DNA from: a virus | IMG/VR virus record: IMGVR_UViG_3300033149_001397 | Span: 1 to 54,166 of that record | Strand: one strand, 5' to 3' | Length of the DNA stretch: 54,166 nucleotides | Shown here: in pieces, positions 7,580-40,033 of the stretch | How positions within the stretch are numbered: the stretch's first letter is position 1 | Layout: every line of letters begins with the position of its first letter | Translations under genes and position numbers: made by a program | The notes under the pieces: generated by a model | The model's database searches: none | What the model was told of the DNA's origin: nothing | The model's input: only the letters and a program-made list of their open reading frames with translations

Positions 7580-7608
7580 ATTATATGGTCGCATTTGCCG
7601 AATGTCAA
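7580..7608 (-). promoter_or_regulatory. Perfect consensus sigma-70 promoter inside the late region
   Basis: TTGACA (7608-7603), a 17-base spacer and TATAAT (7585-7580). It partly overlaps the end of the gene at 7610 and lies 60-90 bases before the next start codon at 7517. It would boost or uncouple expression of the last three late genes, including the metallophosphoesterase. Confidence 0.9.
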
Positions 7609-7609
7609 C

Positions 7610-7933: not shown

Positions 7934-7949
7934 ATTTCTTCACACCCCA

Positions 7950-8225
7950 TTAGATTCTTTTTAGCAACGCTGATTTTACCTCTGCTATCAGTGCGCTAAC
8001 AATGTTTTTTATCACAGATGTCGGCACATCAAAACCGGCCTCCAGCAGCATCCGAGAAATCCACCGGACTGCCTTTGTTTCGATTGCGTTCAGGTCAACA
8101 TTCTCCCTGATTTCTGCGCGCAGTGTTTCACGCGCCTTGTGGATTGCGGCCTTAACCTCGTCGTCAATCTCGTTTTTTGCAATCCACTTTTTTGCCTTGC
8201 GAAAATTCTTCGATACCCAGCTCAT
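7950..8225 (-). CDS. Hypothetical helical protein, 91 aa
   Basis: A basic, probably all-helical protein (MSWVSKNFRKAKKWIAKNE) with an amphipathic C-terminal helix (IVSALIAEVKSALLKRI). No transmembrane segment and no recognised family. It lies in the small-gene cluster between XhlA-like and membrane-segment proteins. Confidence 0.6.
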   Translation of the reverse strand: MSWVSKNFRKAKKWIAKNEIDDEVKAAIHKARETLRAEIRENVDLNAIETKAVRWISRMLLEAGFDVPTSVIKNIVSALIAEVKSALLKRI

Positions 8226-8237
8226 GTAGACACCGCC

Positions 8238-8465
8238 TTAAATTATTTTTTGCAGTATAGCATTTGTTACGAACCCTGCTATCCCGCCCACAAGACCGAA
8301 AATCACAACCAGCAATTTGATTTTGCCGCCCGTCTCTGATACGGCTTCCTCAAGCGTGTTGATGCGTGCGTCATGGCCTCTCAGGTCTGCGCGAAACGCA
8401 TCAATTTCTTTCTTGATGTGCTTGATATTTTCGTCGATGCGGATTAGCAATTCTTTATCGTCCAT
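8238..8465 (-). CDS. XhlA-like hemolysin/holin-associated protein
   Basis: A 75-residue protein with an N-terminal coiled coil (residues 5-45, KELLIRIDENIKHIKKEID) and one C-terminal transmembrane segment (about 50-70, LLVVIFGLVGGIAGFVTNAIL). This coiled-coil plus terminal anchor layout is that of the XhlA family, which works with a holin in phage lysis. It is the best lysis candidate in this cluster. The endolysin itself is encoded far away at 46.0-46.7 kb. Confidence 0.65.
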   Translation of the reverse strand: MDDKELLIRIDENIKHIKKEIDAFRADLRGHDARINTLEEAVSETGGKIKLLVVIFGLVGGIAGFVTNAILQKII

Positions 8466-8470
8466 ATCGT

Positions 8471-8704
8471 TTACGCCCCCGGGATTATATCAGGGCCGTC
8501 GCCGGGGTGGTGATCCCACCCGGTTAGCCGGTCAAAAATTTTTTTGATTATCACAACCACGCGGTGTTTCTGGCGGTCGTTCATTGCGTCTGCGGCCATT
8601 AATGCAACCCATCCAAGCATTGCTATTGCGGCAACCGAAAAAACGCCCACCATGGCTTTGCGGAATGGTTTCCTGGGTGTCGGGTCAAGTACTCGAATAT
8701 CCAT
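8471..8704 (-). CDS. Small single-span membrane protein
   Basis: A 77-residue protein with a basic N-terminus (TPRKPFRKAM) and one hydrophobic segment (VGVFSVAAIAMLGWVALMAA, about residues 19-38). I use the ATG at 8704 because GGTGAT lies six bases upstream. Two in-frame starts lie 6 and 18 bases further up. It could be a holin or a spanin-like partner. No family is recognised. Confidence 0.6.
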   Translation of the reverse strand: MDIRVLDPTPRKPFRKAMVGVFSVAAIAMLGWVALMAADAMNDRQKHRVVVIIKKIFDRLTGWDHHPGDGPDIIPGA

Positions 8705-8740
8705 TATCATCACCACACACATTAATTATTTCACATCAGC

Positions 8741-9055
8741 TCACCTTTTTATACGTTGTATAACCTCGTCCTTGTTCCCGACTCGCCGCTTTAACCTCCG
8801 CGCATACTCCGGGTGTTTCGTCTCCCACGCTTTCCGGGTTGTAACTACGGGGTCGTCTTCACTGACAACACGCACGGATGTTTCAAGTTTTACCCCGGTC
8901 TCTATGATGTAGCTTGCCTTGTCGCCGTCCCCGCGTAGCCCACGGATTATTTTATATTCCACGCCGTCCGGCACATCCGGGCATGGATAGTTGGGCAGTA
9001 TAACCCCGCCATCGTCGTAATCCCTGTATGCTATTCCAACTTTGTAAACTGGCAT
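8741..9055 (-). CDS. Hypothetical protein, 104 aa
   Basis: The ATG at 9055 is preceded by GGGGTGA. A GTG nine bases earlier overlaps the previous stop and is possible. The protein is beta-rich at the N-terminus (MPVYKVGIAYRDYDDGG) and basic at the C-terminus (YARRLKRRVGNKDEV). It follows the tail-fibre genes and precedes the membrane-protein cluster. Function unknown. Confidence 0.6.
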   Translation of the reverse strand: MPVYKVGIAYRDYDDGGVILPNYPCPDVPDGVEYKIIRGLRGDGDKASYIIETGVKLETSVRVVSEDDPVVTTRKAWETKHPEYARRLKRRVGNKDEVIQRIKR

Positions 9056-22799: not shown

Positions 22800-23219
22800 T
22801 TATTTCACCACGTTGTGCATTAGTATTTTTACGATTCGTGGGACATCCTCATCCTGAATCATGATGAACGGTCTTGCCACCATGTTGCGTGTTCCTGTCT
22901 GGTGATATTTGCCGTATGCAACGCTCGGGGCAATCGAAACAGCGTTTCCTGTGACACGCCATCCTATTGAGTTTTTCAGCGTACCGGTATCCATCAACGG
23001 CCTTGATGAGCCGCCCCTGCGCCGTGCAATTGTTGACGCCTTCAACGGCGCCCATCGCGTTGGTTGGCCACCAGCTTTAAAGTTTTTGTCAATACTGCCA
23101 ATCATGTAGCGGCCAATATCATCAAGGTTGCGCGGCATTTGTTTTTTTATCCTGTCGCGCAGCATGTCAATGGACTTGATTGCGGATTTATCGTCAACGC
23201 TGATTGATATCTCAAGCAT
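22800..23219 (-). CDS. Phage virion morphogenesis protein (Mu gpG-like)
   Basis: A 139-residue protein of the phage virion morphogenesis family. Typical elements are the helical N-terminus, WAPLKASTIARRR, LMDTGTLKNSIGWRV, VAYGKYHQTGTRN and a C-terminal RPFIMI. The family includes Mu gpG and phage P2 gpS-like tail-completion proteins. It is packed directly between the DUF1320-like and terminator-like genes. Confidence 0.88.
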   Translation of the reverse strand: MLEISISVDDKSAIKSIDMLRDRIKKQMPRNLDDIGRYMIGSIDKNFKAGGQPTRWAPLKASTIARRRGGSSRPLMDTGTLKNSIGWRVTGNAVSIAPSVAYGKYHQTGTRNMVARPFIMIQDEDVPRIVKILMHNVVK

Positions 23220-23222
23220 TTA

Positions 23223-23678
23223 TTACCAGTCCTCCATGGTACCCTCGTCACCGATTGTTACGCCGTCGGTTTTGCGCGTTATGGTAAACTCCCTGTCCTC
23301 GTCTTTCCTGTTTGACAGCATCAGCGGTTCTGTTGTGGTGTCCGCATCAAGCAACCCCGGGTTGTTTTCTATGATATCGTCTATGCGCTCCAGCGGCCCA
23401 TCACAAAAGCGCACAACCCAATCTGTTTTATTTGGTGCCTTCTGTATTGATAACCGCTTCAATACCTCGCAAACCGCAAGCTCATTTGCAATATCGTCTA
23501 TCTCTCCGGGTACTGTTGTAAGCGGAGTCGTGACAATAGATGATATCCGTCCGTCTATCGCGTTGGACGCCTTTGTCAAAAACCTGTTGATCATATCGGT
23601 CGTGATAAGCGACTCTGTGATCATGTCTCCATAATCCACAAGCATGTCCTGCACGCCCTGTATATTTCCGTATGCCAT
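23223..23678 (-). CDS. DUF1320-like head-tail connector (Mu gp36-like)
   Basis: A 151-residue protein. Its helical opening (GDMITESLITTDMINRFLTK), the DGRISSIV motif and IANELAVCEVLKRL match DUF1320, the Mu gp36 family of head-tail connectors. It is the first structural gene after the sugar cassette. The sugar cassette therefore separates it from the capsid genes it would normally follow. Confidence 0.82.
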   Translation of the reverse strand: MAYGNIQGVQDMLVDYGDMITESLITTDMINRFLTKASNAIDGRISSIVTTPLTTVPGEIDDIANELAVCEVLKRLSIQKAPNKTDWVVRFCDGPLERIDDIIENNPGLLDADTTTEPLMLSNRKDEDREFTITRKTDGVTIGDEGTMEDW

Positions 23679-23737: not shown

Positions 23738-24628
23738 TCACTGCGTGTTTGCCCTGAACCACTCAATCAGGTTTGAAATCCCGCGATCTATCTGGACAAT
23801 CGGCTTCCACCCCGTGTGTTTTTTTATCAGTGTTGTATCTGCTACAGAATGCAGCAGTTCGCCACTGCGCGGCTTTTCGTATACGCGCGGAAGCTTCGCT
23901 CCGTCCACGCAATCAAATATATCTGCGAGCATATTGATTGATATGTTGTTGCCGGTGCCGACCCCAACTGATTCGCCCACAAGACCGTCTGCATATAGCA
24001 CGTCGTGTATTGCGTGTGACAGGTCTGATACGCTGATAAAGTCCCGTGTCTGCTCACCGTCGCCGTATATCTTATAAGCTTTGAGTGTTCCGTTTGCAAT
24101 GCCGCGCGCCCATAGCGCGATTATGCTGCCCTTGTGCATGGACACAGGGCCATACACGTTTGCAAACCGCAGCGGTGTTATCCGCATTCCATAGGATTCG
24201 CAGTATGCCTGGCAGTATGATTCTGTTGCGGCTTTTGATGCGCCGTATGGCGATGATGCCTTGTCGGCACCCGCCGCGCACGACGAGGCAACAACCACGC
24301 GCATGTCCTTATTCTCTCTGCGCACAGCCTCAAGAACGGATATTGTCCCAAGCACATTTTCGTATGCGTTTATCCACGGGTTTTCCTTTGAGTCAACAAC
24401 CGATGTTTGCGCGGCCAGGTGTACTACCGCATCACATCCGTGTATTGCCGTGTCTATTATATCGTTGGTATGTATGTTCCCGGCGACAACAGACGCACCA
24501 AACGGCACGCCTCTCAACCCGCATACGTCGCCGGTGTCCAGCACCACAACCTCATGGCCAATTTCAAGCAGCACCCTGCAGAGATTGCTGCCTATAAACC
24601 CGGCGCCACCCGTTATCAATATTCTCAT
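23738..24628 (-). CDS. NAD-dependent sugar-nucleotide epimerase/dehydratase
   Basis: A 296-residue extended short-chain dehydrogenase. GGAGFIGSN (residues 7-15) is the NAD-binding glycine motif, HLAAQTSV the next conserved segment, and YGASK the catalytic Y-x3-K pair. RFANVYGP and DGEQTRDFISVSDL are typical of UDP-glucose/GlcNAc 4-epimerases and related enzymes. It starts in a four-base overlap with the SqdB-like gene, so the two are coupled. It probably supplies a second nucleotide sugar or isomerises the sulfosugar precursor. The exact substrate cannot be read from the sequence. Confidence 0.88.
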   Translation of the reverse strand: MRILITGGAGFIGSNLCRVLLEIGHEVVVLDTGDVCGLRGVPFGASVVAGNIHTNDIIDTAIHGCDAVVHLAAQTSVVDSKENPWINAYENVLGTISVLEAVRRENKDMRVVVASSCAAGADKASSPYGASKAATESYCQAYCESYGMRITPLRFANVYGPVSMHKGSIIALWARGIANGTLKAYKIYGDGEQTRDFISVSDLSHAIHDVLYADGLVGESVGVGTGNNISINMLADIFDCVDGAKLPRVYEKPRSGELLHSVADTTLIKKHTGWKPIVQIDRGISNLIEWFRANTQ

Positions 24629-25821
24629 TTTTCATCCTCCAATAGTTTTGACCGTCTGTGTTTTCCGTCCCACCGCGTTTGCGGGATTAATACATGCCGA
24701 AGCTTTTCAATCCTGTCTTTATATTGTGATAGATTTTGCAGCATGATTCGTATTTCGCCGCTGATATCCGTTGTTGGCTCGTATCCAATATCAAGCAGAT
24801 GTTTGTGGTCTGGATTATACCTGTGTTTCTCCGCCTCCATGCGCGGGTTTTCGTAGTGCTCAACAGATGCCCTCATTCCGAGGCTGTTCGCCTCTCGACA
24901 AACCATGTGCGCAAGCTCTGTCACGTTATACACGGCCTCGAACTGATTAAACACGCGGTATTCGCCTGCTGCCGGCGGGTTCTCGCACGTTAGTGTCAGG
25001 CACTGCATGGAGTCTTTCAGCGGGAGGAATCCGCGTCGCTGGCCACCAGCTCCATATACTGTCAATGGGTGGCCGATAATCGCAGACGCGCAGTAGCGAT
25101 TAATGGCCGTACCAAAGCATTCGTCAATATCAAACCGCGTCCGCATGTTTGGGTCGTCGCCCATTTCATCAATATGCGCGCCAAACACAACACCCTGCAT
25201 AATGTCTGTTGACCGCAGCCCCCAAATGCGACAAGCAAAACGTGCGTTTTCGCTGTCATGTACTTTCGACAAGTGGTAGAAGCTCCCGGCGTTGCGCGGG
25301 AATGGTGCGTTCTTCCAGACCCGGCCACGGTATTCGATATCAAAAAAACCCTCTGGAATGTCCACTGGCGGCGTGCCGTATTCGCCCATTGTGCCAAGCT
25401 TAACAAGGTGGGCATCCGGGCATACTGTTCGTATCGCCCACAATAGATTCAGCGACCCGAGGACATTGTTGCGCTGTGTCTCCGCTGACTTCCACTGGCC
25501 CATCATGGACCACGGCGCAGACGGTATTTCCGCAAGGTGAACGATTGCATCCGGGAGACAATCCATTAACACACTCTCAAGCTTTATGTATTCAAGCATA
25601 TCGCATTTATATATGTGGTGTCCCGGCCCGTATTTGTCCCTGAACGCCGCTATTCTGTCGTCAATATGGGCAATCTCTATTACGCTGTCTGAGCCCACGC
25701 CATGCACCATATCGCGCCGCAAGCCAATATCACAACCATAAACAGTATGCCCGCGCGCGGCAAGATACTGCGCCAGCGGCCACCCAAGATACCCATCAAT
25801 TCCAGCGATAAAGATTTTCAT
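24625..25821 (-). CDS. sqdB: UDP-sulfoquinovose synthase (SqdB/SQD1-like)
   Basis: A 398-residue member of the SqdB/SQD1/Agl3 family, which makes UDP-sulfoquinovose from UDP-glucose and sulfite with bound NAD. GIDGYLG (7-13) is the NAD motif. HLVKLGTMGEYGTP holds T144, and SFYHLSKVHDS holds Y182 and K186. These positions match the catalytic T/Y/K triad I recall for plant SQD1. IWGLRSTDIMQGVVFG and IGHPLTVYGAGGQRRGFLPL are strongly family-specific. It lies in the glycan cassette, overlapping the epimerase by four bases and 25 bp after the sulfotransferase. I know of no established role for SqdB in phages. Confidence 0.92.
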   Translation of the reverse strand: MKIFIAGIDGYLGWPLAQYLAARGHTVYGCDIGLRRDMVHGVGSDSVIEIAHIDDRIAAFRDKYGPGHHIYKCDMLEYIKLESVLMDCLPDAIVHLAEIPSAPWSMMGQWKSAETQRNNVLGSLNLLWAIRTVCPDAHLVKLGTMGEYGTPPVDIPEGFFDIEYRGRVWKNAPFPRNAGSFYHLSKVHDSENARFACRIWGLRSTDIMQGVVFGAHIDEMGDDPNMRTRFDIDECFGTAINRYCASAIIGHPLTVYGAGGQRRGFLPLKDSMQCLTLTCENPPAAGEYRVFNQFEAVYNVTELAHMVCREANSLGMRASVEHYENPRMEAEKHRYNPDHKHLLDIGYEPTTDISGEIRIMLQNLSQYKDRIEKLRHVLIPQTRWDGKHRRSKLLEDEK

Positions 25822-25846
25822 TGTTTGTCAATCTCCCGGTTTTGTT

Positions 25847-26677
25847 TTACAGCGCTGTTTTGTTCTGCTCAAGCTCAGCAAATATTTCATTCATTTCGTC
25901 GTGGCGAGATATGGAATCATATTCGCTTTTTGGCAACACGTCTTTTGCCTTTTCCATGTATGATATCTTTTTGTAGTATGCGTTTCTTTCAAGCTTGTAT
26001 ATGTCCTCGTCGAATACGTCGGCAATCGCCTTGTCATATACTGATTCATTGGTGTTCAGGTTGGTCATGTTGTTGCCGCCCATCTGGTGATGCTCGTAAT
26101 TCCAGTATTCGACAATGCCCGGCTCATATTCTTCACCGATAATGCCGCACAGGTATTTCAACCACGCCTCATTCTCCGTTGCGAAATCTTTGTATGACAG
26201 GACTATTGTGTTATCAATGTTTGCCGTTGCGAGTAGCGCCTGTTCGTAGAATGTTCCCCACACGCCTATTTTGTCTTCGCGCTTTCGTATGCGCGCAGAT
26301 GCGTAGAACTCCAGCGGCGACTTGTACATAATGAGCGGTATTATATTTGCTCTCCCACCCCACGCCGGCAAAACGTGCTGCCTGAAATACCAAGGTGATT
26401 TGCTCGAATCTACCATGTTGGTAACGTCAAACAACTCTGCGTATCTGTAATACACATTATTGATATCTGTCCCATGCAGAAATTCATCTGTGATGTATTT
26501 GCAGTTTGTCCGACATGATGAGCATCTGCTGTATTCGATATATCCGCGGTCCGGGCTCGTCCACTGTGAAACCTCTCCGATGGAAACACAGTTCTTGAGC
26601 GACCCAAGCTGATATCCGAGCAATGTGCTGCCACAGTAAGACGCCCCAAGAATGAAAACCACGTTCGGCTGCTTCAT
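25847..26677 (-). CDS. PAPS-dependent sulfotransferase
   Basis: A 276-residue protein. GASYCGSTLLG (residues 11-21) is a P-loop-like 5'-phosphosulfate-binding loop at the N-terminus, as in carbohydrate sulfotransferases. IMYKSPLEFYASARIR near residues 117-132 fits the 3'-phosphate-binding strand-helix with its conserved serine. DSSKSPWYFRQ also matches the family. A CxxC-x2-C cysteine group (RCSSCRTNCK) lies around residue 52-61. It would transfer sulfate from PAPS to a sugar or protein hydroxyl. It overlaps the upstream methyltransferase gene by four bases. Confidence 0.85.
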   Translation of the reverse strand: MKQPNVVFILGASYCGSTLLGYQLGSLKNCVSIGEVSQWTSPDRGYIEYSRCSSCRTNCKYITDEFLHGTDINNVYYRYAELFDVTNMVDSSKSPWYFRQHVLPAWGGRANIIPLIMYKSPLEFYASARIRKREDKIGVWGTFYEQALLATANIDNTIVLSYKDFATENEAWLKYLCGIIGEEYEPGIVEYWNYEHHQMGGNNMTNLNTNESVYDKAIADVFDEDIYKLERNAYYKKISYMEKAKDVLPKSEYDSISRHDEMNEIFAELEQNKTAL

Positions 26678-27492
26678 GCGATTCTTCTCCCAACAACAGT
26701 AACCATAATCCCGTTTTCAAACCAGTCGAGAATTTCAAACCCAACCGACTCAAGCATTGCCCGCAGGACACGCCCAAAGAAGTGTGTAGCATGGCCAATC
26801 GGCGCGGCCATTGTGCGCTCAACATCAAGCTCCTCAAGAAATGTTTTGAGCAGAATCGACCCGCCATCCCTTATCATTGACGACATCTTTTTCAAGTCTT
26901 GATGCGGGGAATAGCTGTGCTCGATATAATCCAGCATGACCCCGCAGTCATATTGCCGCATATCATGGTAGTCCTGAAATCGGCCATACCACATGTTCTC
27001 AAGCCCAAGTTTTTGTTTGGCGTTTCGCACGTGCCACTTGTTCAGTTCACACCCGCACAGCTCTTCAACGCCCATATCGCGGACAGCATCAAGGAAAAAC
27101 CCACACGCGCCCCCAACCTCAAATATGCTTTTTGGCAACCCGTTTGCATCAATCACGCGCTGAAATGTCCTCTGGTAAAAGTCCTTGATTTGCCGGCGCC
27201 GTAAGTAGCGATCTTCAACAGGTGTAAACCCTGTATTTAGAAAGTACCTGTCAGCGTGCGCCCGGGCGTTTTCGCTGTTGCCGCTATTCTTTGACAGCAC
27301 ATCAAATCTAAGCCTCGGAGAATAGAACCTGAGGCCGCACCCTGAGCATTCTACAAGATTGTGAAGCGTGTTGTTTACGTTCTCGTAAATCAACACATGC
27401 TCTCTTTTATCTGAGCCACAAAACGAGCAATCCGGTGTTTCCCAGTCTTCCCGCTTTTGCCACCGCTTTTTGAAGTCAACCGTCTTCGACAT
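26674..27492 (-). CDS. SAM-dependent methyltransferase with N-terminal zinc knuckles
   Basis: A 272-residue class I methyltransferase. I start it at the ATG at 27492, right after the GT2 gene. The longer frame extends 51 residues into that gene without a plausible start. Residues 20-60 hold two CxxC knuckles (CSFCG and CSGCG), a layout common in sugar methyltransferases. The SAM motif is IFEVGGACGFFLDAV, and MLDYIEHSYSPHQDL matches the usual post-II motif. It probably methylates a sugar in the cassette product. Confidence 0.85.
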   Translation of the reverse strand: MSKTVDFKKRWQKREDWETPDCSFCGSDKREHVLIYENVNNTLHNLVECSGCGLRFYSPRLRFDVLSKNSGNSENARAHADRYFLNTGFTPVEDRYLRRRQIKDFYQRTFQRVIDANGLPKSIFEVGGACGFFLDAVRDMGVEELCGCELNKWHVRNAKQKLGLENMWYGRFQDYHDMRQYDCGVMLDYIEHSYSPHQDLKKMSSMIRDGGSILLKTFLEELDVERTMAAPIGHATHFFGRVLRAMLESVGFEILDWFENGIMVTVVGRRIA

Positions 27493-27496
27493 TCCA

Positions 27497-28378
27497 CTAA
27501 TCCTCTGTGTCTTGTTTCTGCTGGGCAATATCAACCACCGCACCCATAACATGCTGGTTAGAATATGGAAGGCCAGATATGGAAAATACATCGGACACAA
27601 ACCCGCATACGTCCTTGTTGTATAAAGAATCCCGCACCGCACCAAGGTTGCTAATCAGCCCTTTCAGCCCGTGTAGTTTGCTGTATTTCCGCGAATCTTT
27701 CCCGGCAACAATGACGCTGTTGTCTGTGATTGTCCCTATCAGCAGCCCGCATAGCGCCATTGCATCAACATCGTCCCACCGCCGCTTCAGCCGGCTATAA
27801 AATATCCCGTAGTACGGAATTATCCATGGTATCAATCCATGATTCCTGTGTTTCTCAACCAACCCCTTATATCGTTCGTATGACATTTCCGGCGTGAACG
27901 ATGTTCCATGCAGCCCGAGGCATTGGTATCTTCTATTGTCGAATATACATTTGAATGTGTATCCGTCCTTCTTCATTCTGGTTATCTGGTCAACCTCGCA
28001 CGCGACCCTGTTGATATACGGATAGTTTTTCATGATTTCATGCTTGTAAATTTTAACCCCGAATATCCACCTATCAAGATGAACGTCCCACAGCGGATAT
28101 ACTATGATTGCTTCTTTCGGCCCGCTTTCAATCACGCCGTTATACATGCGGCGAACCGCGTCCGGGCGCAACAGCATATCCTCGTCAACCTGTATATAGT
28201 ATGGTGTCTCGCACCGATTAATCATTTCCTGAAATGCCGCCGCTGACGGCGAGTAGTTTTCTACCGTATCAAGCTGAAACTTACAGTCTTGATTCTTTAG
28301 TCTCGATACGCAATCTGCCGCAGTAATGCCGCCAATAGTAATCACGTATACTGTTAATTCGCTGCTAAGGTCTTTCAT
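27497..28378 (-). CDS. GT2-like glycosyltransferase (free-standing paralogue)
   Basis: A 293-residue protein. The N-terminal strand (LTVYVITIGG), AAFQEMINRC and YYIQVDEDMLL with its D-x-D metal motif are typical of GT-A fold family 2 glycosyltransferases. Along its whole length it is clearly related to the N-terminal half of the next gene upstream (shared PLWDVHLDRW, VKIY, LHGTS, ERYKGLVEKHR), so the pair arose by duplication. The substrate is unknown. Confidence 0.82.
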   Translation of the reverse strand: MKDLSSELTVYVITIGGITAADCVSRLKNQDCKFQLDTVENYSPSAAAFQEMINRCETPYYIQVDEDMLLRPDAVRRMYNGVIESGPKEAIIVYPLWDVHLDRWIFGVKIYKHEIMKNYPYINRVACEVDQITRMKKDGYTFKCIFDNRRYQCLGLHGTSFTPEMSYERYKGLVEKHRNHGLIPWIIPYYGIFYSRLKRRWDDVDAMALCGLLIGTITDNSVIVAGKDSRKYSKLHGLKGLISNLGAVRDSLYNKDVCGFVSDVFSISGLPYSNQHVMGAVVDIAQQKQDTED

Positions 28379-30150
28379 CCTATCACCCTGCCAAAACAGT
28401 GTTTACAGCTCTCCTGTGGCTGTTTGCTTAACACCGAATATCTCAACTCGTTAAACGCCTCTATGTTGTATGGGCTCGCTGGCGTGTCAATTCTGTGAAT
28501 GTCTTGTGGCGGGGCAATACGCCGGCACAGCCCTGTCAGAACCCAGTCGTATTTTGCAGCACACCGCGCGGCAACAAACGGGCTTTTGCAGTTGTGGACC
28601 CTCATGGTTGTATCAATCGGCGTCGGCCACACTGTCACAAGCTCAGCGCCCGGCAGGTTTTTATACCCCTCAATTTCTTCAATCTGTTCTGTGTCTGTGT
28701 CAAAAATCGCCACATCCCGGAAGGCCCTGCTATCCAATGGTGACATTTCGAAATGTGGCAGCGTGTTCATAAATGTTATGAACGCCACCCCGAGCCCGTT
28801 GGCGAACCCAATGAACGCCGGAATCTCTGTATAATTCTGCTTGTTCACCACGCATGATACGCCTGTTTTTATCTGGCCTTTAACCGCCTCGATTCCTGCC
28901 AGCACAACCTCAAACGTCTTTGTGCGCGTGACCATGTTGTGGCCATCTGCATCATAGGCATTCAGGCTCACGGATATGTTATCAAGCCCTGATTCAACAA
29001 GAGAATCCGCATGCTTGTGCAGAAGTATTCCATTTGTGATAAGAGATACAAACTTGCCCTTGCTTTTTAGCAACCTGATAATATCAAACACATTCTCATT
29101 AAGCAGCGGTTCGCCCATTCCGGCAAGGCATGCCCCGGTGATTGATGGGAACTTTCGAAGGAACCGCTCAACGTGCTGGGGCTCCAGGTCTTTAAACCCA
29201 GTCACCTCTTCCGTGTGCTCTTCTCTGCGGCAGAACCAGCAGCGCGAATTACACTTGTCGGTCATAAACAAAACAGCCTCACGCGGAGCCCCGAGTTTTG
29301 ACATGACTCGATTGATATTATCTTCTGTGTATGGCAGCCCGGACAGGTCCATGATATCAGTTATAAACTGTCGCGGCCATTTGTTGTGGAATGAAAAATC
29401 AAGCACGTCAAGGTTGTCAAGTATTCCGCGCACCCCGGGAAGGCTGCCATATTTTGTATAGTCTTTTTCCCCTGTGTTTTCGTTAACGTCTGTTATGTTG
29501 CCTATCACCATTCCGGCGAATGATGCGGCGGCAATGGGATTGAAATTCTGCTCCATGCGATTAAAAAATATCTGATAATACTCGTCAACCCATCTGACAA
29601 GACCATGGCGACGGTGTTTTTCCACGAGGTCTTTGTATCGCTCGTATGCTGTTATCGTTGTATATGATGTGCCGTGCAGGCCCACGCACGATTCGCGGCC
29701 GCCATAGGGAATGTTCTTGAATGTGTATCCGTCCGCTTCCAGCCGCTTGAACTGTCCGACCTCGCATGAGATTGTGTTCTCGTATGGGTAGTTTCGGACA
29801 ATGTTGTGGTCATATATTTTGACGCCCTGCAACCACCTGTCAAGATGGACATCCCACAGCGGGAACACCGCAAACGCCTCTTTGTCGTCGAGGCTAATCG
29901 CCGCATCATACATCGTCTGTACGGCTGTTTCTTCAAGTATCATATCCTCATCAAGCTGAATGAAGTATCTTGTTTTACATCGCGTCAACATCTCCTGGAA
30001 TGCCGCAGACATTGGGCGCTTGTTGACGATAAAGGCAACGTTGAACACGCCATCGCACTCCTGCTTTTTCAGCGCCGACACGCACGCATCAAATGTCTCG
30101 CCACCAATACTGATTACAAACACTGTCAAGTCAAGCCGATTCAATTCCAT
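28375..30150 (-). CDS. GT2 glycosyltransferase fused to a radical-SAM enzyme
   Basis: A 591-residue fusion. Residues 1-285 are a GT2-like domain paralogous to the neighbouring gene (QLDEDMIL, residues 65-72, carries D-x-D). Residues about 290-510 are a radical-SAM core with C300-x3-C304-x2-C307 (KCNSRCWFC) and GMGEP, the SAM-binding motif. Residues about 520-591 contain further cysteines (HNCKSPFVAARCAA, GLCRR, SCKHC), fitting an auxiliary iron-sulfur SPASM-like region. Such enzymes make hard bonds on sugars or peptides. The fusion suggests modification and sugar transfer are linked. Confidence 0.85.
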   Translation of the reverse strand: MELNRLDLTVFVISIGGETFDACVSALKKQECDGVFNVAFIVNKRPMSAAFQEMLTRCKTRYFIQLDEDMILEETAVQTMYDAAISLDDKEAFAVFPLWDVHLDRWLQGVKIYDHNIVRNYPYENTISCEVGQFKRLEADGYTFKNIPYGGRESCVGLHGTSYTTITAYERYKDLVEKHRRHGLVRWVDEYYQIFFNRMEQNFNPIAAASFAGMVIGNITDVNENTGEKDYTKYGSLPGVRGILDNLDVLDFSFHNKWPRQFITDIMDLSGLPYTEDNINRVMSKLGAPREAVLFMTDKCNSRCWFCRREEHTEEVTGFKDLEPQHVERFLRKFPSITGACLAGMGEPLLNENVFDIIRLLKSKGKFVSLITNGILLHKHADSLVESGLDNISVSLNAYDADGHNMVTRTKTFEVVLAGIEAVKGQIKTGVSCVVNKQNYTEIPAFIGFANGLGVAFITFMNTLPHFEMSPLDSRAFRDVAIFDTDTEQIEEIEGYKNLPGAELVTVWPTPIDTTMRVHNCKSPFVAARCAAKYDWVLTGLCRRIAPPQDIHRIDTPASPYNIEAFNELRYSVLSKQPQESCKHCFGRVIG

Positions 30151-31834
30151 TTTCTATTGCCCTCTCTGTATAATGGATTACTCTGTCCCACGATAGTATT
30201 TTGTTAACCACATGGTTGTTCAACATGAATATCCTGTCATAATTTTGCAGCGAAAAATAGCGAATCGCCGCTATAAATTGCCCGACATCCGGCCTAACAA
30301 TAACTCCGTTTATATCGCCCACAAAAAGATTCATTGCATAGCCTACATCCGTTGATACAACCGGCGTTCCGCACGCAATGGCCTCGCATGTGGTTGACGC
30401 TATGGCCTCGGAATGGCTCGCATTAAGATACACATCCACGCTGTTGTAGAATTTGCACATTCCGTCATACGGTATTTCGTCGATGAGGTGTCCGGCCATG
30501 CGGATTTCCTCTACCACGTCCGGGTTAACATCCTTTGCGGCGAACCTGAAATTATATTCATCTTTCAATGCCCTGAACACAGGCAGGATGATTTCATAAA
30601 ACCGTTTGTGGTCGCGCGGGTTGCCGTGGCTTGCATTGCCGGCCCACCCTATTGTCAGCCGCTCATTCCGCTTTGTTCGCACGTTGAAAAACATGTTTGT
30701 ATCAACGCCCTGCGGAGTAAAATATACTTTGTGGCCGATGTGCGCTGACCGTGCAATTTTGTACAGCCTGTCTGAAATCGCGTGTATGTGTTTGCAACAT
30801 TTAAGTTTCTCATTGAACACACCAATGAACCTGTCATCATCATACCCGTGGTGGGACTCAACAGATACTGCTACGCGCTCTGGTGGCACCTGCGCCATGA
30901 GCCGCCGTAATATCTCTGGATACAGCCCAATAATCGACCGGCAGACAATGAAGTCATACCGAGAAAAATTAATATCGTCAATTTTTATGTAGCCTCTAAT
31001 TGCCTTGTTCCTGTACTCGCGGATAAAGCACGTCTTGTCAACCCTGTATTTGTGTGATAGCTTTTCTGCAATTACATCAACGAGCCGCGCAACAGCCCAG
31101 TCCGGCGTATCTGCGATAAACAGAATGCGCTTCTTTTCCGGCTCCGGAATCTTGTTTGCGAACCCTGCAATTCCGCTAAGTCTGTCAGGCCACTTGAATT
31201 GTAATATTGAGTGGCTTTTTATGTACTGGTCGTCATGGTCAAATGTTTTTTGGGTGTGCATTGTCCTGTGTTCGGCGTGCTGAATCCGGTGATCCTTCAG
31301 CCACCCTATTGAATATCCGGCCTCTTTAGCCCGCCAGTAAAAATCAACGTCCGAGCAGTATGCTGGTGAAAACACCTGGTCTAACCCGCCGAGATATTCC
31401 CACACGTCGCGCCTTACCAGCAGACCGCCACCACCCAAATATACGCGGTCGCTGTCTTTCCATTCGTGTAGATCTTTCCCTATTCCGTTTTCGTTGACCT
31501 CGTTGAGCACACACCCAACAATGTCATGGTTGTTTTCTGTTGCCGCCCGGAACAGCCGCTCAATGGCACCCGGGCTCACAAACTGGTCGTCGTCAAGAAA
31601 TAGAAACCAGCCGTATTTTGCGAACTTGGCAATATGATTGCGGCCACCCACACACCCAAGGTTCTTTTCGTGCTCAATAAAGCGTACCCACGGGAATCGC
31701 TCTTTGCGTATTTTCGACTCCCCGCCATTGTTCATCACAATGACCTCGCCGAACTTCTCACAGCTAATTGCTTTTAAGCAACTCACAATTGTTCCGCTGT
31801 TATGCGTTAAAATCAAAACAGATATGTCAAGCAT
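30131..31834 (-). CDS. Bifunctional GT2-GT4 glycosyltransferase
   Basis: A 567-residue protein. Residues 1-220 are a GT2 domain (SVLILTHNSG, WFLFLDDDQF with the D-x-D metal site, CSDVDFYWRAKEAGY). Residues about 230-560 resemble a GT-B fold family 4 domain: GWAGNASHG, then SEAIASTTCEAIACGTPVVS, which has the conserved E-x7-E spacing. Two glycosyltransferase domains in one chain usually add two sugars in succession. It overlaps both neighbours, so it belongs to the coupled cassette. Confidence 0.87.
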   Translation of the reverse strand: MLDISVLILTHNSGTIVSCLKAISCEKFGEVIVMNNGGESKIRKERFPWVRFIEHEKNLGCVGGRNHIAKFAKYGWFLFLDDDQFVSPGAIERLFRAATENNHDIVGCVLNEVNENGIGKDLHEWKDSDRVYLGGGGLLVRRDVWEYLGGLDQVFSPAYCSDVDFYWRAKEAGYSIGWLKDHRIQHAEHRTMHTQKTFDHDDQYIKSHSILQFKWPDRLSGIAGFANKIPEPEKKRILFIADTPDWAVARLVDVIAEKLSHKYRVDKTCFIREYRNKAIRGYIKIDDINFSRYDFIVCRSIIGLYPEILRRLMAQVPPERVAVSVESHHGYDDDRFIGVFNEKLKCCKHIHAISDRLYKIARSAHIGHKVYFTPQGVDTNMFFNVRTKRNERLTIGWAGNASHGNPRDHKRFYEIILPVFRALKDEYNFRFAAKDVNPDVVEEIRMAGHLIDEIPYDGMCKFYNSVDVYLNASHSEAIASTTCEAIACGTPVVSTDVGYAMNLFVGDINGVIVRPDVGQFIAAIRYFSLQNYDRIFMLNNHVVNKILSWDRVIHYTERAIENGIESA

Positions 31835-32960
31835 TTTTTATCATCCTTGCCGCCTTTGTTGCTATCTCAGCGGGCTTTATTGAGGACATACAAACATTGT
31901 CTTTTGTGCGGTTGCAATATCTAATCCTTCCACGCAAGCGCTGCCAGTCCCAGCACGGAACACATGGGGCCGCGCCGATTTTGTGGATGTAATCAACGTG
32001 GTCACCGTAATGGTCAAACCGCCATTCAAACGGCATTGACGACAACAGCACCAGCGTGGGTATTCCAAGCGCGGCAGATACATGGGCCATGCCGGTGTCC
32101 GGAGATATCACAAGGTCAGACATCCAGCATACAGCCGCTGCATCCATTGCGGTTTCTGTTCGCGTGCCGAGGTCAAGCACCCCTGGAATATCGCCAAACA
32201 ATGCGGCATCAACGTCCAGCACAACAACGGTGTGGTCGGGTAGTGCCTTGCGCAGTTCAATAATTACATCGCGTGATTTCCACGGCTCATACGATCTATT
32301 CCACGCCACCGCCTGTAGCACGTATGTAATGATAGGCCCGGTTACGTTGCGCAGCAGGTCTGACGCCGCAGCATAGTTCTCTGCTGTTAATCTCGGCTCA
32401 ACCACGTTCTCATATTCAGGCAGGTCGATTCCAATCATTTTTGCAAACGATTCAACCCGCCTGCCACGGTTGCGCAGTATGCTATAAAATTCAAGGCACC
32501 GCATGAAATTTATAATCAGCTTGTATTCTGTCCCATCAAGATTTATGTCGTGTATGGAAACCGGCTCGTCAATGAAATCATGGCCGGAAACCATATCAAT
32601 AAATTTCGGCAGCGTGGCATAGGTGATAGTCGCGTGCGGATACCTGTGTTTTAGCTGCTTGACTGTTGGCAGAGAAAGAAGGATATCGCCGAGGCCCATG
32701 TCGCGCATTATCAGTATTTTGTCGCCCGGCAATATCTCATCATCAAAAACAGAAATAGACTCCAATGTTGTATTGGAGCCTATATAATACGTGTCGTCGT
32801 TAATAACCTTATACTCAGGATATAACCCCGTCATTATTTCGCGTGAGATATCGGATTTATCGTCAACCTGTCGCGGTATCCCGCGCACCATTGTTGTTCC
32901 TGTTTTGCCACCCGGCGGGAAACCCAACATTTCCCGGCCGAGATAAACGACCTGTTTCAC
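31827..32960 (-). CDS. GT9-like (heptosyltransferase-family) glycosyltransferase
   Basis: A 377-residue protein. IMRDMGLGDILLSLPTVKQL (residues about 83-102) is the N-terminal motif of family 9 transferases, and SPDTGMAHVSAALGIPTLVL (about 288-307) is the C-terminal nucleotide-sugar motif. The first 60 residues are an extra domain. It begins with GTG after AAGGAGGA and is the first gene of the cassette, 23 bp after the secreted-protein gene. Confidence 0.85.
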   Translation of the reverse strand: MKQVVYLGREMLGFPPGGKTGTTMVRGIPRQVDDKSDISREIMTGLYPEYKVINDDTYYIGSNTTLESISVFDDEILPGDKILIMRDMGLGDILLSLPTVKQLKHRYPHATITYATLPKFIDMVSGHDFIDEPVSIHDINLDGTEYKLIINFMRCLEFYSILRNRGRRVESFAKMIGIDLPEYENVVEPRLTAENYAAASDLLRNVTGPIITYVLQAVAWNRSYEPWKSRDVIIELRKALPDHTVVVLDVDAALFGDIPGVLDLGTRTETAMDAAAVCWMSDLVISPDTGMAHVSAALGIPTLVLLSSMPFEWRFDHYGDHVDYIHKIGAAPCVPCWDWQRLRGRIRYCNRTKDNVCMSSIKPAEIATKAARMIKNA

Positions 32961-32983: not shown

Positions 32984-34267
32984 TTATTGGTTCTCTACAT
33001 ATCCATTCAGTTTGACAATCACATCAACGTTCCCGCCGACCCCTGCACGTGACGAAAGCCTTACCCCGAGTATCGGGTTTGTATTAACCGGAATGTGCAG
33101 CACTCCGTTAATCGGGAAGTGGCAATTGCCAAGGGCATTACACTGCGCAGAGTAGATTTCCTCATCGGTCCCGGCATCCTGCCATAGTATCATCTGGACA
33201 GGCACAGTGTCGCTTGCACCTGCGCCCAAATCATCATCAACAATAATTGAGATATCCGTAACGTGCTTATCGTAGGTTGTGTTTATCCATGTGCTGATTG
33301 AGCTCGTGGCCCACGTCCAATTGTCGGCAACCGTTATTGTTGCCTGCGGAATCTGCTGCCCGCTGTCAGCCTGGTCGCGCATACCGAATGTGCCGATGCC
33401 GCTTGAATATGTGGTTACGCTTTTCGCGCCCTGGTTTGTAATGTGTGTATAGATAGTGTTTCCGTTGGTCTCTACAACCTGCAATCCACGGGCCGCTGAA
33501 CCACCGGCGAAATCGCGCACAGGAACAACAGCACTGCCGTCTGTTATGGTCGTCAACAGGCTCTTGTATGTGCCTGTGTTTATGTCGGCAAAAATATTTC
33601 CGTCCTCGTCTGTCAACACAAATATTTGTGGATCATAGGTGCCGGCCGCATCAAGGATGTCTGCCGTGGTTGTGCCATCCGTAATACCAACCGGGCCATA
33701 GTTAACCGTGTCGTCAACGATGTTCCACGGTGTCCCATCAATGGCATTTCTTATCGTGACCGCGCTTGATGCCGTGCCGACTCCGAGCGTAACGTTAAGA
33801 GCACCACTCGAATCAACCGTCGCCTCAACACCGCTTGTCCTGTCTGTAATAACAGCCGTGTCTGTGGCTGATACCCCGGCGCATGTTACCGTCCCGTCAA
33901 CCGTCAGGCTGCCACCGTCGTCGTCAACACTGATTGCCTGCGAGCCATCGGCTATAAACAGGTGACCTGTTGCGTCTACATTGGCAAGGTCGTACCCATC
34001 GCCTATCTCAACGCGCAGTGCGGGAGAATTGCCCGGGGCCACGTCAACACACGTTGAATAGTCCTCGTTGCAAATTCTGAATGTGCCGCTGGCAATCTCT
34101 GTGATGCTGCCCACGGAAACAACAGTGTTTACATCAATTGTCCCGTCGGCGTTTACCTCAAGACGGTCATCATCCGTATCGCGAATATGAACATCCCTAA
34201 TCGGCCCGGCCAACGCCAACATGGACGCGACAAGGATCATGATCGTTGTGTAAAAAATAGTTTTCAT
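32984..34267 (-). CDS. Secreted phage protein with signal peptide
   Basis: A 427-residue protein. The N-terminus (basic K2, hydrophobic core residues 4-19, A-L-A-G cleavage-like end) is a clear signal peptide. The mature part is beta-rich, acidic and threonine/serine-rich with short repeats, and has cysteine pairs (CNEDYSTC, CNALGNC) that could form disulfides outside the cytoplasm. It lies between the capsid gene and the sugar cassette, behind a terminator. An exported protein in a head operon is unusual. It may be surface-displayed and glycosylated by the cassette. A head decoration protein with a hydrophobic start is an alternative. Confidence 0.75.
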   Translation of the reverse strand: MKTIFYTTIMILVASMLALAGPIRDVHIRDTDDDRLEVNADGTIDVNTVVSVGSITEIASGTFRICNEDYSTCVDVAPGNSPALRVEIGDGYDLANVDATGHLFIADGSQAISVDDDGGSLTVDGTVTCAGVSATDTAVITDRTSGVEATVDSSGALNVTLGVGTASSAVTIRNAIDGTPWNIVDDTVNYGPVGITDGTTTADILDAAGTYDPQIFVLTDEDGNIFADINTGTYKSLLTTITDGSAVVPVRDFAGGSAARGLQVVETNGNTIYTHITNQGAKSVTTYSSGIGTFGMRDQADSGQQIPQATITVADNWTWATSSISTWINTTYDKHVTDISIIVDDDLGAGASDTVPVQMILWQDAGTDEEIYSAQCNALGNCHFPINGVLHIPVNTNPILGVRLSSRAGVGGNVDVIVKLNGYVENQ

Positions 34268-34287: not shown

Positions 34288-34322
34288 TAAAATAAAGGGC
34301 CGGACGGTTGCCCGCCCAGCCC
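34288..34322 (-). terminator. Terminator/attenuator after the capsid gene
   Basis: On the minus strand an 11-pair stem (GGGCTGGGCGG with CCGTCCGGCCC) encloses a GCAA tetraloop and is followed by TTTATTTTAAA. It starts ten bases after the capsid stop codon. It should cut transcript levels of the secreted protein and sugar cassette below those of the capsid gene. Confidence 0.85.
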
Positions 34323-34331
34323 TCAGGTTTG

Positions 34332-35270
34332 TTACGAAATGACGTTACGGATCAGGTATGCGGCGTATTCGCACACAACCTTGACGTCGTTTTTCTCGTC
34401 TGCGCGCACGTACTTGCCGCGCGGGTCAATGGTGTCCCACTTGTCCACCCGGCGCATCTGAGTGAAGAAGGTCTGACCAAATGTCATCATCTTTTTCCGC
34501 GGCGTTCCAGGAGATTTGTAGAACAATAGCACGTGCTTGCCCCACACGTCAGAGCCGCTGTAGGTAGCTCCGTGGTTGGCAGAATCGTAAATGCCGCCCG
34601 GAATGAGCACCTTCATGTTGAACAGTGTGGCGGGAAGATCGCCGTTGATCAACAGGTTGTCATTGGTGAACTTGCGGAGCGCGCGGATGTTGCTGTCGCG
34701 CTTCATCACCTTTGCAACAGCCGCCGGAATCACAATGTGGTTGGGCTCGAACCCGATGGCCGCGCGAATGGTTTCTTTCGCGGCATCAAGCTCTTCTTCG
34801 ATATCGCCGGTGTAGCTGGCGTTATCCCACTGTGCTGTTCCCGTGCGTGTGGCAGTGTGTCCGCTGGTTGCGAACGTGGCTGCGGCCGTAGCAAGATCGG
34901 CAGCCCGCTTCTCATGTGCAAGCATCAGATTCTCTGTGATGTATCCAGTCGCGTCAACCTCCAGGTCAATGGGTTTGTCCGCGGCGTCGATATCATCCTG
35001 GGAAATTTTGTGCTTCAACGCATGTCGGTCACACGTGTAGGTCGGAGTGCTTTCGATTTCGAACGGGTCAACCTCGTTAGCCTCCGCGTTGCTGGCCTGC
35101 ACGGTGTCATAAATGCGCTTGTCCTGCTTGCCGTAGACAGGATATTTGTCGCTCTCTTTGTCTACCTTGACAAACGGGAAAACCTCAGAGGCGACGAATA
35201 ACCCCTGCCCGTATTTAATGCTGTAGTTCGTCAGAAATCTGTCAACTTTGATGTCTCCATACTTGGACAT
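34332..35270 (-). CDS. Major capsid protein
   Basis: A 312-residue protein with an HK97-fold major capsid look: SIKYGQGLFVASEVFPFVKV near the start, DRHALKHKISQDDIDAADKP, FEPNHIVIPAAVAKVMKRD and a strong P-domain pattern. It follows the DUF2190-like gene and the protease/scaffold, and AGGAGGTGAGCG precedes the ATG. The terminator just after it fits the highest expression in the operon. Confidence 0.88.
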   Translation of the reverse strand: MSKYGDIKVDRFLTNYSIKYGQGLFVASEVFPFVKVDKESDKYPVYGKQDKRIYDTVQASNAEANEVDPFEIESTPTYTCDRHALKHKISQDDIDAADKPIDLEVDATGYITENLMLAHEKRAADLATAAATFATSGHTATRTGTAQWDNASYTGDIEEELDAAKETIRAAIGFEPNHIVIPAAVAKVMKRDSNIRALRKFTNDNLLINGDLPATLFNMKVLIPGGIYDSANHGATYSGSDVWGKHVLLFYKSPGTPRKKMMTFGQTFFTQMRRVDKWDTIDPRGKYVRADEKNDVKVVCEYAAYLIRNVIS

Positions 35271-35284
35271 ATTCGCTCACCTCC

Positions 35285-35686
35285 TTAGCTGGAATATGCA
35301 TTAATACCGACGAGCTGAACGGCGATAATATCACCGGATGAGCTCGCCGCTTCCAGGGCTTTACCCACAATTATGATGCCCTGAGTTGTAGCCCCTGCTG
35401 GCTTCGGTTTGACCCGACCAGCTGAATCAGCTGTCACGAGTTTGTCACCGATTGATACGCTTGCCCCGGCGGTGAGATACACGATGCCGGATGTGTACAC
35501 TGTGCCATATTTTCCGTCCGCGATCTGCTCGCTTGTCGCGCCGATCATTGTCTCGACCGAGCTTGCGCCTGACGGATACTGGCACTCGTCTTTGGTGGAT
35601 GACGTCACAACAACCCGGTATTTCTCGATTGTCGAGCCGCTGCCGTTTTTCCACGTGGTCAAATTGCTTAGATTTTTCTCTGGCAT
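35285..35686 (-). CDS. DUF2190-like capsid decoration protein
   Basis: A 133-residue beta-rich protein. GTVYTSGIVYLTAGASVSIG, KLVTADSAGRVKP and GKALEAASSSGDIIAVQLVG are typical of the DUF2190 family found between the scaffold/protease and the capsid gene. Family members stabilise or decorate heads. AGGAGGTGTGA precedes the start. Confidence 0.85.
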   Translation of the reverse strand: MPEKNLSNLTTWKNGSGSTIEKYRVVVTSSTKDECQYPSGASSVETMIGATSEQIADGKYGTVYTSGIVYLTAGASVSIGDKLVTADSAGRVKPKPAGATTQGIIIVGKALEAASSSGDIIAVQLVGINAYSS

Positions 35687-35701: not shown

Positions 35702-36334
35702 TTAGTCTTTGTCGTAAAGTTCGAGATCCAGGACGGCCTTTGCGTAGTGGTCCTTGTTGTCGTAATCAAGGTCGTTCTCCTTGCAATAGGCCCGCACTTT
35801 CTTCTCGATAACTGAGTCGTCATCCTTGTTGCGCTCGTTGGCGGGCGTTGATTTGCCAGCCTGCGAGAACAGGTCAGATTCCGGCATGTCCTCAATGTGC
35901 TTGCGGATGTCCGTCACCGTCTCGCCATCCACATCGATTGAAAATTTGTCCGGGTCTTCATCGGCCTGCTTCAACAGCGCGGAGAAATGCGCGCGCAGTG
36001 CCGGTGGAAATTTCTTAGAGTGCTTATCAAGAAACGCCTCGCGCTCCTTGTCTGCGGCCTCGTCTGCGGCCTTCCTGTATTCGGTAATTTCCTCTTTCAT
36101 TGTGCTGTTCTCTTTTTTGACAGCATCCAGTTCGTCGGAAATCTTTGAAAACTTTTCAGCCTCTTCCGTGGCCTTGTCCTCGGCCTCTTTCATGGCCTTG
36201 GCGTGATCGTCTTTGGCCTGTTTCAGCTTGTCGCCAAGCTCCTCAATCTTGCTCTGTGCGGCAGAGTGTTTCTTGGTAAGCTCGGTTACTTCTGCTGTCA
36301 GGTCTGCGATCTGCTTTTCAAGCTCTTTGCTCAT
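35702..36334 (-). CDS. Nested scaffold protein (internal start in the protease gene)
   Basis: Inside the protease frame the sequence GGAGGTGAAAGCAAA-ATG places a near-perfect ribosome site seven bases before an in-frame ATG at 36334. Initiation here gives a 210-residue, mostly coiled-coil protein (MSKELEKQIADLTAEVTEL...). This is the arrangement of lambda C/Nu3 and Mu I/Z, where the scaffold is the C-terminal half of the protease gene. Confidence 0.85.
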   Translation of the reverse strand: MSKELEKQIADLTAEVTELTKKHSAAQSKIEELGDKLKQAKDDHAKAMKEAEDKATEEAEKFSKISDELDAVKKENSTMKEEITEYRKAADEAADKEREAFLDKHSKKFPPALRAHFSALLKQADEDPDKFSIDVDGETVTDIRKHIEDMPESDLFSQAGKSTPANERNKDDDSVIEKKVRAYCKENDLDYDNKDHYAKAVLDLELYDKD

Positions 36335-37129
36335 TTTGCTTTCACCTCCGTCAGGTGAATTTGGTTCATCGTCCTGCTTATACCAAAAACTGGTTTCGGG
36401 GACACCGTTTTCATACATTGCCGCAAGCTCGTTAAGGTTCGATAGCGCAGGCATGCTCTTGCCCAATATCGCCACGCCAACAGGGAGCAGCTTGTACAAT
36501 TTGCCGGTTGCCTCATCTTTAAAGTTTTTCGCTATCTCAAGCGACTTGAATTTGTAGGCCCCGGCCCTTATCAGCGTGGCAAGTTTTTTTGGAACTTGCT
36601 TCAGGTCACATATCAGCTTTTCGCCCTGTACACGGAAATTGCGCATCCATCCGAACGCCGGCATACCGTCCTTGAAGTGACCTTCCAGCTTTGCAATCGA
36701 CTGGTCTTTGTTGTGTCCAAGCTTCACCGCCGCACTCAGCCGTCCACCCATTTCGTTAGCAGCAGCCGCCATCCCGAGCAGGTCGTCCTTGGTGTACTTG
36801 CGCTTTGAGCCGTTGCAACTTGTGTATTCGCCTGTCGCAAATACTTCCTGCCCATTAAAGTCAACCGTCTCAAGTGTATCTTTTGCAAACTTGTCTGACG
36901 CGGGCTCGAACGGAACGCACTTGAAATCATGTTCTTTTACCCATTTGCGCGCCTGCGCCTCGGTGTATTTTTCCTTGTCAAAACGGATCGCCTGGATTTC
37001 AGATTTTCCGTCTTCTGTTATACCAAAGATGGCGTCAATGCCAGGCGCAAACTTGTCGTTCTGTCTGCGCATCTCTTTAAACTTTTTTGGGTCTGCTACC
37101 CTGCATGCGTGTTCGTTTTCGTATGGCAT
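35702..37129 (-). CDS. Capsid maturation protease fused to scaffold (Mu gpI-like)
   Basis: A 475-residue protein. The N-terminal part (about residues 40-260) resembles the Mu gpI protease family: VKLGHNKDQ, PAFGWMRNFRV, LATLIRAGAYKFKSLEIAKN and LLPVGVAILG. H in LGHN and S in KFKSLEI are the likely catalytic residues. The rest is a coiled-coil scaffold domain also made separately from an internal start at 36334. I use the ATG at 37129 (AAGGTGAT upstream). A longer in-frame start overlaps the phosphatase gene. Confidence 0.85.
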   Translation of the reverse strand: MPYENEHACRVADPKKFKEMRRQNDKFAPGIDAIFGITEDGKSEIQAIRFDKEKYTEAQARKWVKEHDFKCVPFEPASDKFAKDTLETVDFNGQEVFATGEYTSCNGSKRKYTKDDLLGMAAAANEMGGRLSAAVKLGHNKDQSIAKLEGHFKDGMPAFGWMRNFRVQGEKLICDLKQVPKKLATLIRAGAYKFKSLEIAKNFKDEATGKLYKLLPVGVAILGKSMPALSNLNELAAMYENGVPETSFWYKQDDEPNSPDGGESKMSKELEKQIADLTAEVTELTKKHSAAQSKIEELGDKLKQAKDDHAKAMKEAEDKATEEAEKFSKISDELDAVKKENSTMKEEITEYRKAADEAADKEREAFLDKHSKKFPPALRAHFSALLKQADEDPDKFSIDVDGETVTDIRKHIEDMPESDLFSQAGKSTPANERNKDDDSVIEKKVRAYCKENDLDYDNKDHYAKAVLDLELYDKD

Positions 37130-37143
37130 AGTATCACCTTCAA

Positions 37144-37608
37144 TTATTCTGAATTGTTTTCTGTACAATTCATACCACGTATAAACTGGTTGAATGTCTT
37201 TATTAGTGCCTCGTTTGGATTTGCAATTGATCTTTTTTCTTTAATCATCGCAATTGCCGAATTGATATCTTTGCACACACCGCCAAACACAAGGTATGAT
37301 GCCACAACACAAACAGACCTGCTCCTGCCCTCATGGCAATATACAAGAATTGGTTTGTCAGAGTGGGCCAGAATAGAGCGCAGGGAATCTATTGCCACGC
37401 CGACTTTCCACACCGGATTTCCGCCGCCATCAACAAACCCAACATGTATGCTTGCCTCAACATCAAGATCTATTGCGCAGTTCATTGTCAAGAAATCCTG
37501 CTCATTTGCATTAACAATAAAAAACACGCCGTTTTTCTTTCTGACCGGCGCCTTGTCTTTTCCATCACGAGATGAGCCAATCCAAACCCTATCTGTAATT
37601 CTGTCCAT
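37144..37608 (-). CDS. Dual-specificity protein phosphatase
   Basis: A 154-residue protein tyrosine/dual-specificity phosphatase. YCHEGRSRSV carries the C-x5-R loop with C91 and R97. The usual H before C is replaced by Y90. D60 in VGFVDGG is a candidate general acid. It opens with DRITDRVWIGS, the typical start of small DSPs. The gene sits between portal and protease, three bases after the portal stop, so it is expressed with head proteins. It may dephosphorylate a virion protein, a host protein or a nucleic-acid cap. The target is unknown. Confidence 0.87.
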   Translation of the reverse strand: MDRITDRVWIGSSRDGKDKAPVRKKNGVFFIVNANEQDFLTMNCAIDLDVEASIHVGFVDGGGNPVWKVGVAIDSLRSILAHSDKPILVYCHEGRSRSVCVVASYLVFGGVCKDINSAIAMIKEKRSIANPNEALIKTFNQFIRGMNCTENNSE

Positions 37609-40016: not shown

Positions 40017-40033
40017 TAACACCACTCCGCGCG

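Follow-up and report, generated by a model that had tools for sequence, protein, structure and literature searches.

Why would a phage keep, between its capsid gene and its head-tail connector gene, a run of enzymes that make and join sugars? The question is raised by the 54,166-base virus record IMGVR_UViG_3300033149_001397 of IMG/VR, analysed here over its whole length (the window), in which eight open reading frames on the minus strand (23738–32960), all free of internal stop codons, form a cassette for several glycosyltransferases, a radical S-adenosylmethionine (SAM) enzyme, a methyltransferase, a putative sulfotransferase, an SQD1-like enzyme and a sugar epimerase. We propose, with moderate confidence, that these genes give the phage a glycan pathway of its own, which works in the cytoplasm and attaches its oligosaccharide to a phage protein, most likely one of the virion. 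The direct basis for this consists of the gene content, integrity and co-direction of the cassette, its conserved position, its lack of membrane proteins and its recurrence with unrelated capsids, from which we infer the identity of the sugar, the order of transfer, the acceptor and the benefit.

The first-pass annotation of this DNA had described eight tightly coupled genes forming a glycan pathway inside the head-tail operon, and both statements were borne out: the pathway is real, intact, co-directional and conserved, neighbouring genes are separated by short overlaps and gaps (Table 1), and the overlapping, co-directional genes have ribosome-binding-like sequences. These spacings depend on the methyltransferase start, which was set at ATG 27492, a longer TTG-initiated frame (26674–27645) being a mechanical call. 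All enzyme assignments stood except that of the sulfotransferase, which is weak. The GT9-like protein matched the NCBIfam heptosyltransferase I model (1.8e-9), with a Pfam match below the cut-off (0.00033), while the GT2-GT4 fusion matched Pfam Glycos_transf_2 (1.2e-14) and GT4 (3e-11), and the methyltransferase matched Methyltransf_23 (1.5e-12). The radical SAM half of the second fusion (Radical_SAM, 1.2e-23) carries a CxxxCxxC motif and four conserved C-terminal cysteines. Neither its GT2 half nor the stand-alone GT2 matched any Pfam model; the predicted structure of the latter (predicted local distance difference test score 85.5) adopts the GT-A/GT2 fold with a Foldseek probability of 1.00 and E about 1e-7, and the two are paralogues of 47% identity with relatives in other phages. 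The two halves correspond to a natural operon pair that is fused in the window, since in contigs L175 and L176 a separate radical SAM gene, whose product was aligned with the fusion, stands directly 3' of the gene for a large GT2-containing protein. As a lone query against viral contigs the fusion protein returned nothing useful. The same GT2 domain lies within proteins of 970–1220 amino acids in L175 (7058–10732), L176 (7898–10813), where the gene closely trails a capsid gene, and L177 (3271–6906), and a 672-residue protein of the SQD1-bearing phage L083 (4046–6064) combines B12-binding, radical SAM and GT2 domains.

A search of related phages for the same gene order yielded a sister contig (IMGVR_UViG_3300033153_003713, L002/L005), the sole match to the capsid profile among viral contigs, with a capsid 81% identical to that of the window and a cassette at the same place. 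Its order is capsid, homologue of the 427-residue protein that lies between capsid and cassette, GT9 (67% identity), GT2, GT4, two other genes, SQD1 (68%), epimerase (60%) and gp36 (62%), which argues that the order is not due to chance. The ends of the cassette are thus kept (60–68%) and the middle is exchanged: GT2 and GT4 are separate genes, with an extra GT2 domain, and the middle holds a different methyltransferase and a 240-residue protein that matched no Pfam model and may be a hydrolase, to judge by its GxSxG motif. No homologue of the radical SAM enzyme, the stand-alone GT2 or the putative sulfotransferase was found in the sister. The cassette is missing from deposited phages whose capsids belong to this family: two small genes separate capsid and gp36 in RcapMu and Komp_PAO1_1, and in RDJL Phi 1 a single, different small gene precedes the neck gene. 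Because the sister keeps the ends and swaps the middle, and because these deposited relatives lack the cassette, we concluded from the gene comparison that it is a module which was gained, has been maintained and is diversifying. A stray insertion with broken genes was ruled out by the intact frames and by the conservation of the core in the sister, and contamination or a bacterial fragment by the nature of the record as a virus and by the same arrangement in the sister phage.

The arrangement had been called unusual among phages, and indeed no homologue of SQD1 or of the stand-alone GT2 was found among 50,697 deposited phage genomes. SQD1-like genes are present, by contrast, in at least 115 IMG/VR contigs, 80 of which were retrieved (58 distinct). 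The SQD1-epimerase pair, with transferases, is found between capsid and tail genes in L012, which has a Gp13-like capsid, and in L052, which has a phrog_10 capsid; in L032 and L053 SQD1 stands just upstream of tail genes, the capsid side being missing from the contig or unrecognised. Leaving out one large lineage, and with fragmentary contigs and weak hits included, a GT2 lay no more than 10 kb from SQD1 in 17 of 25 phage contigs, where random placement would give 10.3; none of 2000 simulations reached 17. In a quick tree without bootstrap, phage SQD1 genes fall at several places among cellular ones, with nine switches between cellular and phage genes, of which at least five are forced by branches with good support for the cellular group; the genes of the window and its sister group with Anaerolineae enzymes. 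This affinity bears on the origin of the gene and not on the host. A capsid profile run against 396 genomes from the class to which an Anaerolineae genome belongs found distant relatives only, in four of them. Tentatively, and with less than even confidence, we suggest that tailed phages of several unrelated capsid lineages repeatedly acquired a cellular SQD1-epimerase pair and placed it, alongside exchangeable transferases, in their head-tail operons, giving a phage-made sulfonated particle coat that could be widespread and was missed since deposited genomes lack the pair.

Whether the glycan is sulfonated turns on the SQD1-like enzyme. As in the characterised Agl3, plant SQD1 and SqdB, homology extends over the full length (residues 2–385 against the PDB entry of Arabidopsis SQD1, 3.8e-105) and the catalytic His96, Thr145, Met146, Tyr182 and Lys186 are kept. 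Its setting between phage head and tail genes distinguishes it from these enzymes, as does position 101. Several observations weigh against our proposal. Arg101, found in Arabidopsis SQD1 and S. meliloti SqdB, is replaced by Pro in the window and in 57 of the 58 other distinct phage homologues, and the R101A mutant of Agl3 from Sulfolobus is inactive (PMC4388408). The score against NCBIfam NF041015, 501.3 bits, falls below the curated 575-bit cut-off, and the sulfotransferase is a putative one, with a match to Sulfotransfer_3 below the cut-off (0.005), a P-loop-like motif at its N-terminus and a relative (26% identity) in L069, a contig with an SQD1-like gene nearby. On the side of the acceptor, no enzyme or site was identified, and the adjoining signal-peptide-like protein is an alternative candidate.

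From the first of these observations it could be argued that the SQD1-like enzyme makes another UDP (uridine diphosphate) sugar, for example one derived from a 4-keto or 5,6-ene form, without using sulfite, so that the glycan would be unusual, yet unsulfonated. This is a real possibility, although we rate it as somewhat less than probable, as every other residue named as important is retained, bacterial proteins 57–62% identical to Arabidopsis SQD1 also carry Pro, and the Arg-bearing Thermoplasmata enzymes nest inside the Pro clade of the tree. Across the family, Pro occupies this position in 112 of 125 aligned members, with Arg in Arabidopsis, one phage and Thermoplasmata, and it is the sole alignment column that splits the two groups. 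Given the replacement of Arg101, we name the protein SQD1-like, short of a proven UDP-sulfoquinovose synthase, and consider sulfonation of the glycan likely rather than proven, since the catalytic residues are kept and Pro also occurs in bacterial relatives of Arabidopsis SQD1. The earlier view that the pathway ends in sulfur chemistry therefore holds as far as SQD1 homology and catalytic residues go, but not for the residue at position 101, the NCBIfam score or a motif-level sulfotransferase that is absent from the sister.

The epimerase matched Pfam Epimerase (1.2e-47) and structures of UDP-glucose 4-epimerase (4.6e-39), and its gene also adjoins SQD1 in several Desulfobacterota, Anaerolineales, Omnitrophota and Bathyarchaeota loci. 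It could convert UDP-sulfoquinovose to UDP-sulfofucose; sulfofucose is described in PMC12421959 as a rare sulfosugar. In the proposed pathway, the cassette would be expressed together with the virion genes, and the SQD1-like enzyme and the epimerase that follows it would provide an unusual UDP-sugar, the likeliest being a 6-sulfo form akin to sulfoquinovose or sulfofucose. The GT9-like, GT2-GT4, GT2 and GT2-radical SAM enzymes would then build a short oligosaccharide containing this sugar, which the radical SAM enzyme, the methyltransferase and the putative sulfotransferase would decorate. Transfer to a phage protein, most likely a capsid or tail protein of the virion, would take place during assembly, and the particle might thereby be masked or its adsorption altered. 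A terminator-like hairpin separates the capsid gene from the gene of the 427-residue protein, and a like hairpin occurs at the same place in the sister; the cassette may therefore be transcribed below the level of the capsid gene.

Two features guide the choice of acceptor. A simple hydropathy scan showed no transmembrane segment in any of the eight proteins of either phage, and hence no sign of a flippase, a lipid-linked initiating enzyme or a ligase, which favours a cytoplasmic protein; the position in the late operon in turn favours a virion protein. As a virion glycosylation system would require, the locus holds phage glycosyltransferase genes that by position and direction would be expressed with the virion genes. 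The glycan might instead be attached in the cytoplasm to the 427-residue protein before its export, yielding a glycosylated surface protein of the infected cell, with a role for instance in superinfection exclusion or adhesion, rather than a virion component. Some GT9-like enzymes are known to glycosylate autotransporters prior to their export, and the gene directly adjoins the cassette in both phages. The protein begins with a hydrophobic segment (residues 3–21; 6–24 in the sister homologue, L002 4390–5535), and in the alignment of the two the first ~90 residues are highly conserved while the remainder has strongly diverged; family and PDB searches with it gave no match. In L052, too, a signal-peptide-like protein directly follows SQD1. 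We nevertheless consider this unlikely, as no such neighbour was noticed in L012, L032 or L053, although this was not a systematic search, and a gene located between capsid and connector could also encode a head fibre or a decoration protein, in which case the hydrophobic start would not serve for export.

Slightly less likely still is an action on the host envelope, on the lipopolysaccharide core or another surface glycan, for example as a block to superinfection in the manner of serotype-converting phages. GT9 enzymes are mostly lipopolysaccharide-core heptosyltransferases, and the GT9-like gene matches such models; the gtr serotype-converting cassettes of temperate phages, which act on the host O-antigen, share with our cassette the phage-borne glycosyltransferases. 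They also include the membrane proteins GtrA and GtrC, whereas our cassette encodes neither a flippase nor a lipid-carrier enzyme nor any other membrane protein, a late head-tail operon would be late for modifying the host, and a search for a tyrosine integrase found none, leaving lysogeny unsupported. In favour of such an action, host N-glycosylation has been proposed for a Mu-like phage with an SQD1-family enzyme (PMC7785012). That the transferases instead modify phage DNA appears highly improbable. Hypermodification of DNA by phage transferases has precedents (Pyle et al. 2024, cited in PMC12619734), and in another phage lineage SQD1 adjoins genes for deoxycytidine monophosphate (dCMP) deaminase and PolA, yet a thymidylate synthase or hydroxymethylase homologue was found in none of 21 records (the window and 20 related ones) in a search that included positive controls, and the cassette sits among virion genes; a Tet/JBP search was run without a positive control.

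Glycosylation of phage virions is known from few cases. The closest working principle to a phage-made glycan on the virion is offered by mycobacteriophages, in which glycans were reported on capsid and tail tube subunits (Freeman et al. 2023, cited by PMC12619734 and PMC12691614), and phage-encoded glycosyltransferases are common to both. Mycobacteriophages are annotated with one or two such enzymes (e.g. PMC11256854), whereas our cassette adds its own nucleotide-sugar enzymes, a radical SAM enzyme, a methyltransferase and an SQD1-like enzyme, and a virion protein is its proposed acceptor. A Mu-like phage from the Cariaco Basin likewise combines an SQD1-family gene, a putative UDP-sulfoquinovose synthase, with Mu-like head genes; in the accessible part of this paper, the one that we found on a phage sulfosugar enzyme, the gene is treated as a lone auxiliary gene that acts on N-glycans of the host, with no discussion of a head-tail glycan cassette (PMC7785012). 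In the literature searched, which covered papers outside subscription, we found no description of a multi-gene cassette at a fixed place that recurs across capsid families. A pathway fixed between capsid and tail, with conserved ends, an exchangeable middle and unrelated capsids, would suggest that uncultivated phages are under selection to decorate a protein of their own and would change how such genes are read in viral metagenomes. It also raises the concrete questions of whether the Pro101 form adds sulfite and which protein bears the glycan.

Table 1. Cassette genes and flanking features in the window, listed in the direction of the cassette (5' to 3').
Feature	Coordinates	Strand	Remarks
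Portal-MuF fusion	37611–40025		upstream of cassette
Coiled-coil protein at scaffold position	35702–37168		upstream of cassette
Cement protein	35285–35686		upstream of cassette
Major capsid protein	34332–35270	-	phrog_1005 major head protein, 9.5e-64; upstream flank
Terminator-like hairpin with T tail	34295–34324	-	between capsid gene and 427-residue protein gene
427-residue protein, signal-peptide-like N-terminus	32984–34267	-	possible glycan acceptor
GT9-like glycosyltransferase	31827–32960	-	first cassette gene; conserved core
GT2-GT4 fusion	30131–31834	-	8 bp overlap with GT9-like; conserved core
GT2-radical SAM fusion	28375–30150	-	20 bp overlap with GT2-GT4; variable middle
Stand-alone GT2-fold transferase	27497–28378	-	4 bp overlap with GT2-radical SAM; variable middle
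SAM-dependent methyltransferase	26674–27492	-	4 bp gap after GT2; variable middle
Putative sulfotransferase	25847–26677	-	4 bp overlap with methyltransferase; variable middle, weak assignment
SQD1-like (UDP-sulfoquinovose synthase family) enzyme	24625–25821	-	25 bp gap after putative sulfotransferase; conserved core
GalE-like NAD (nicotinamide adenine dinucleotide)-dependent sugar epimerase/dehydratase	23738–24628	-	4 bp overlap with SQD1-like; conserved core
Mu gp36-like (DUF1320-type) head-tail connector	23223–23678	-	Phage_Mu_Gp36, 5.9e-6; downstream flank
Phage_tail_S	22800–23219		downstream of connector; tail tube also downstream

Further SQD1-bearing contigs differ in layout. The other large lineage, 33 of the 58 distinct loci (including L013, L023, L024, L025, L031, L047 and L051), has an SU10-type portal and carries SQD1 in a replication module with exonuclease, Sak4, dCMP deaminase, ParB/DNA methylase and PolA; a GT2 lies upstream of the portal, away from SQD1, and some records add an epimerase, a methyltransferase or a B12-radical SAM-GT2 gene. 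A long N-terminal extension of the SQD1 protein in L028, considered as a fusion, was rejected as it had no match and the composition of a frame artefact. By eye, the L052 cassette includes a UDP-N-acetylglucosamine 2-epimerase-like protein (7581–8825), and its signal-peptide-like protein (11136–11735) was recognised in the same way. In the very large phage contigs L003/L004 (173–241 kb) and L007 (228 kb), SQD1-like genes with 56–57% identity stand among other sugar genes.

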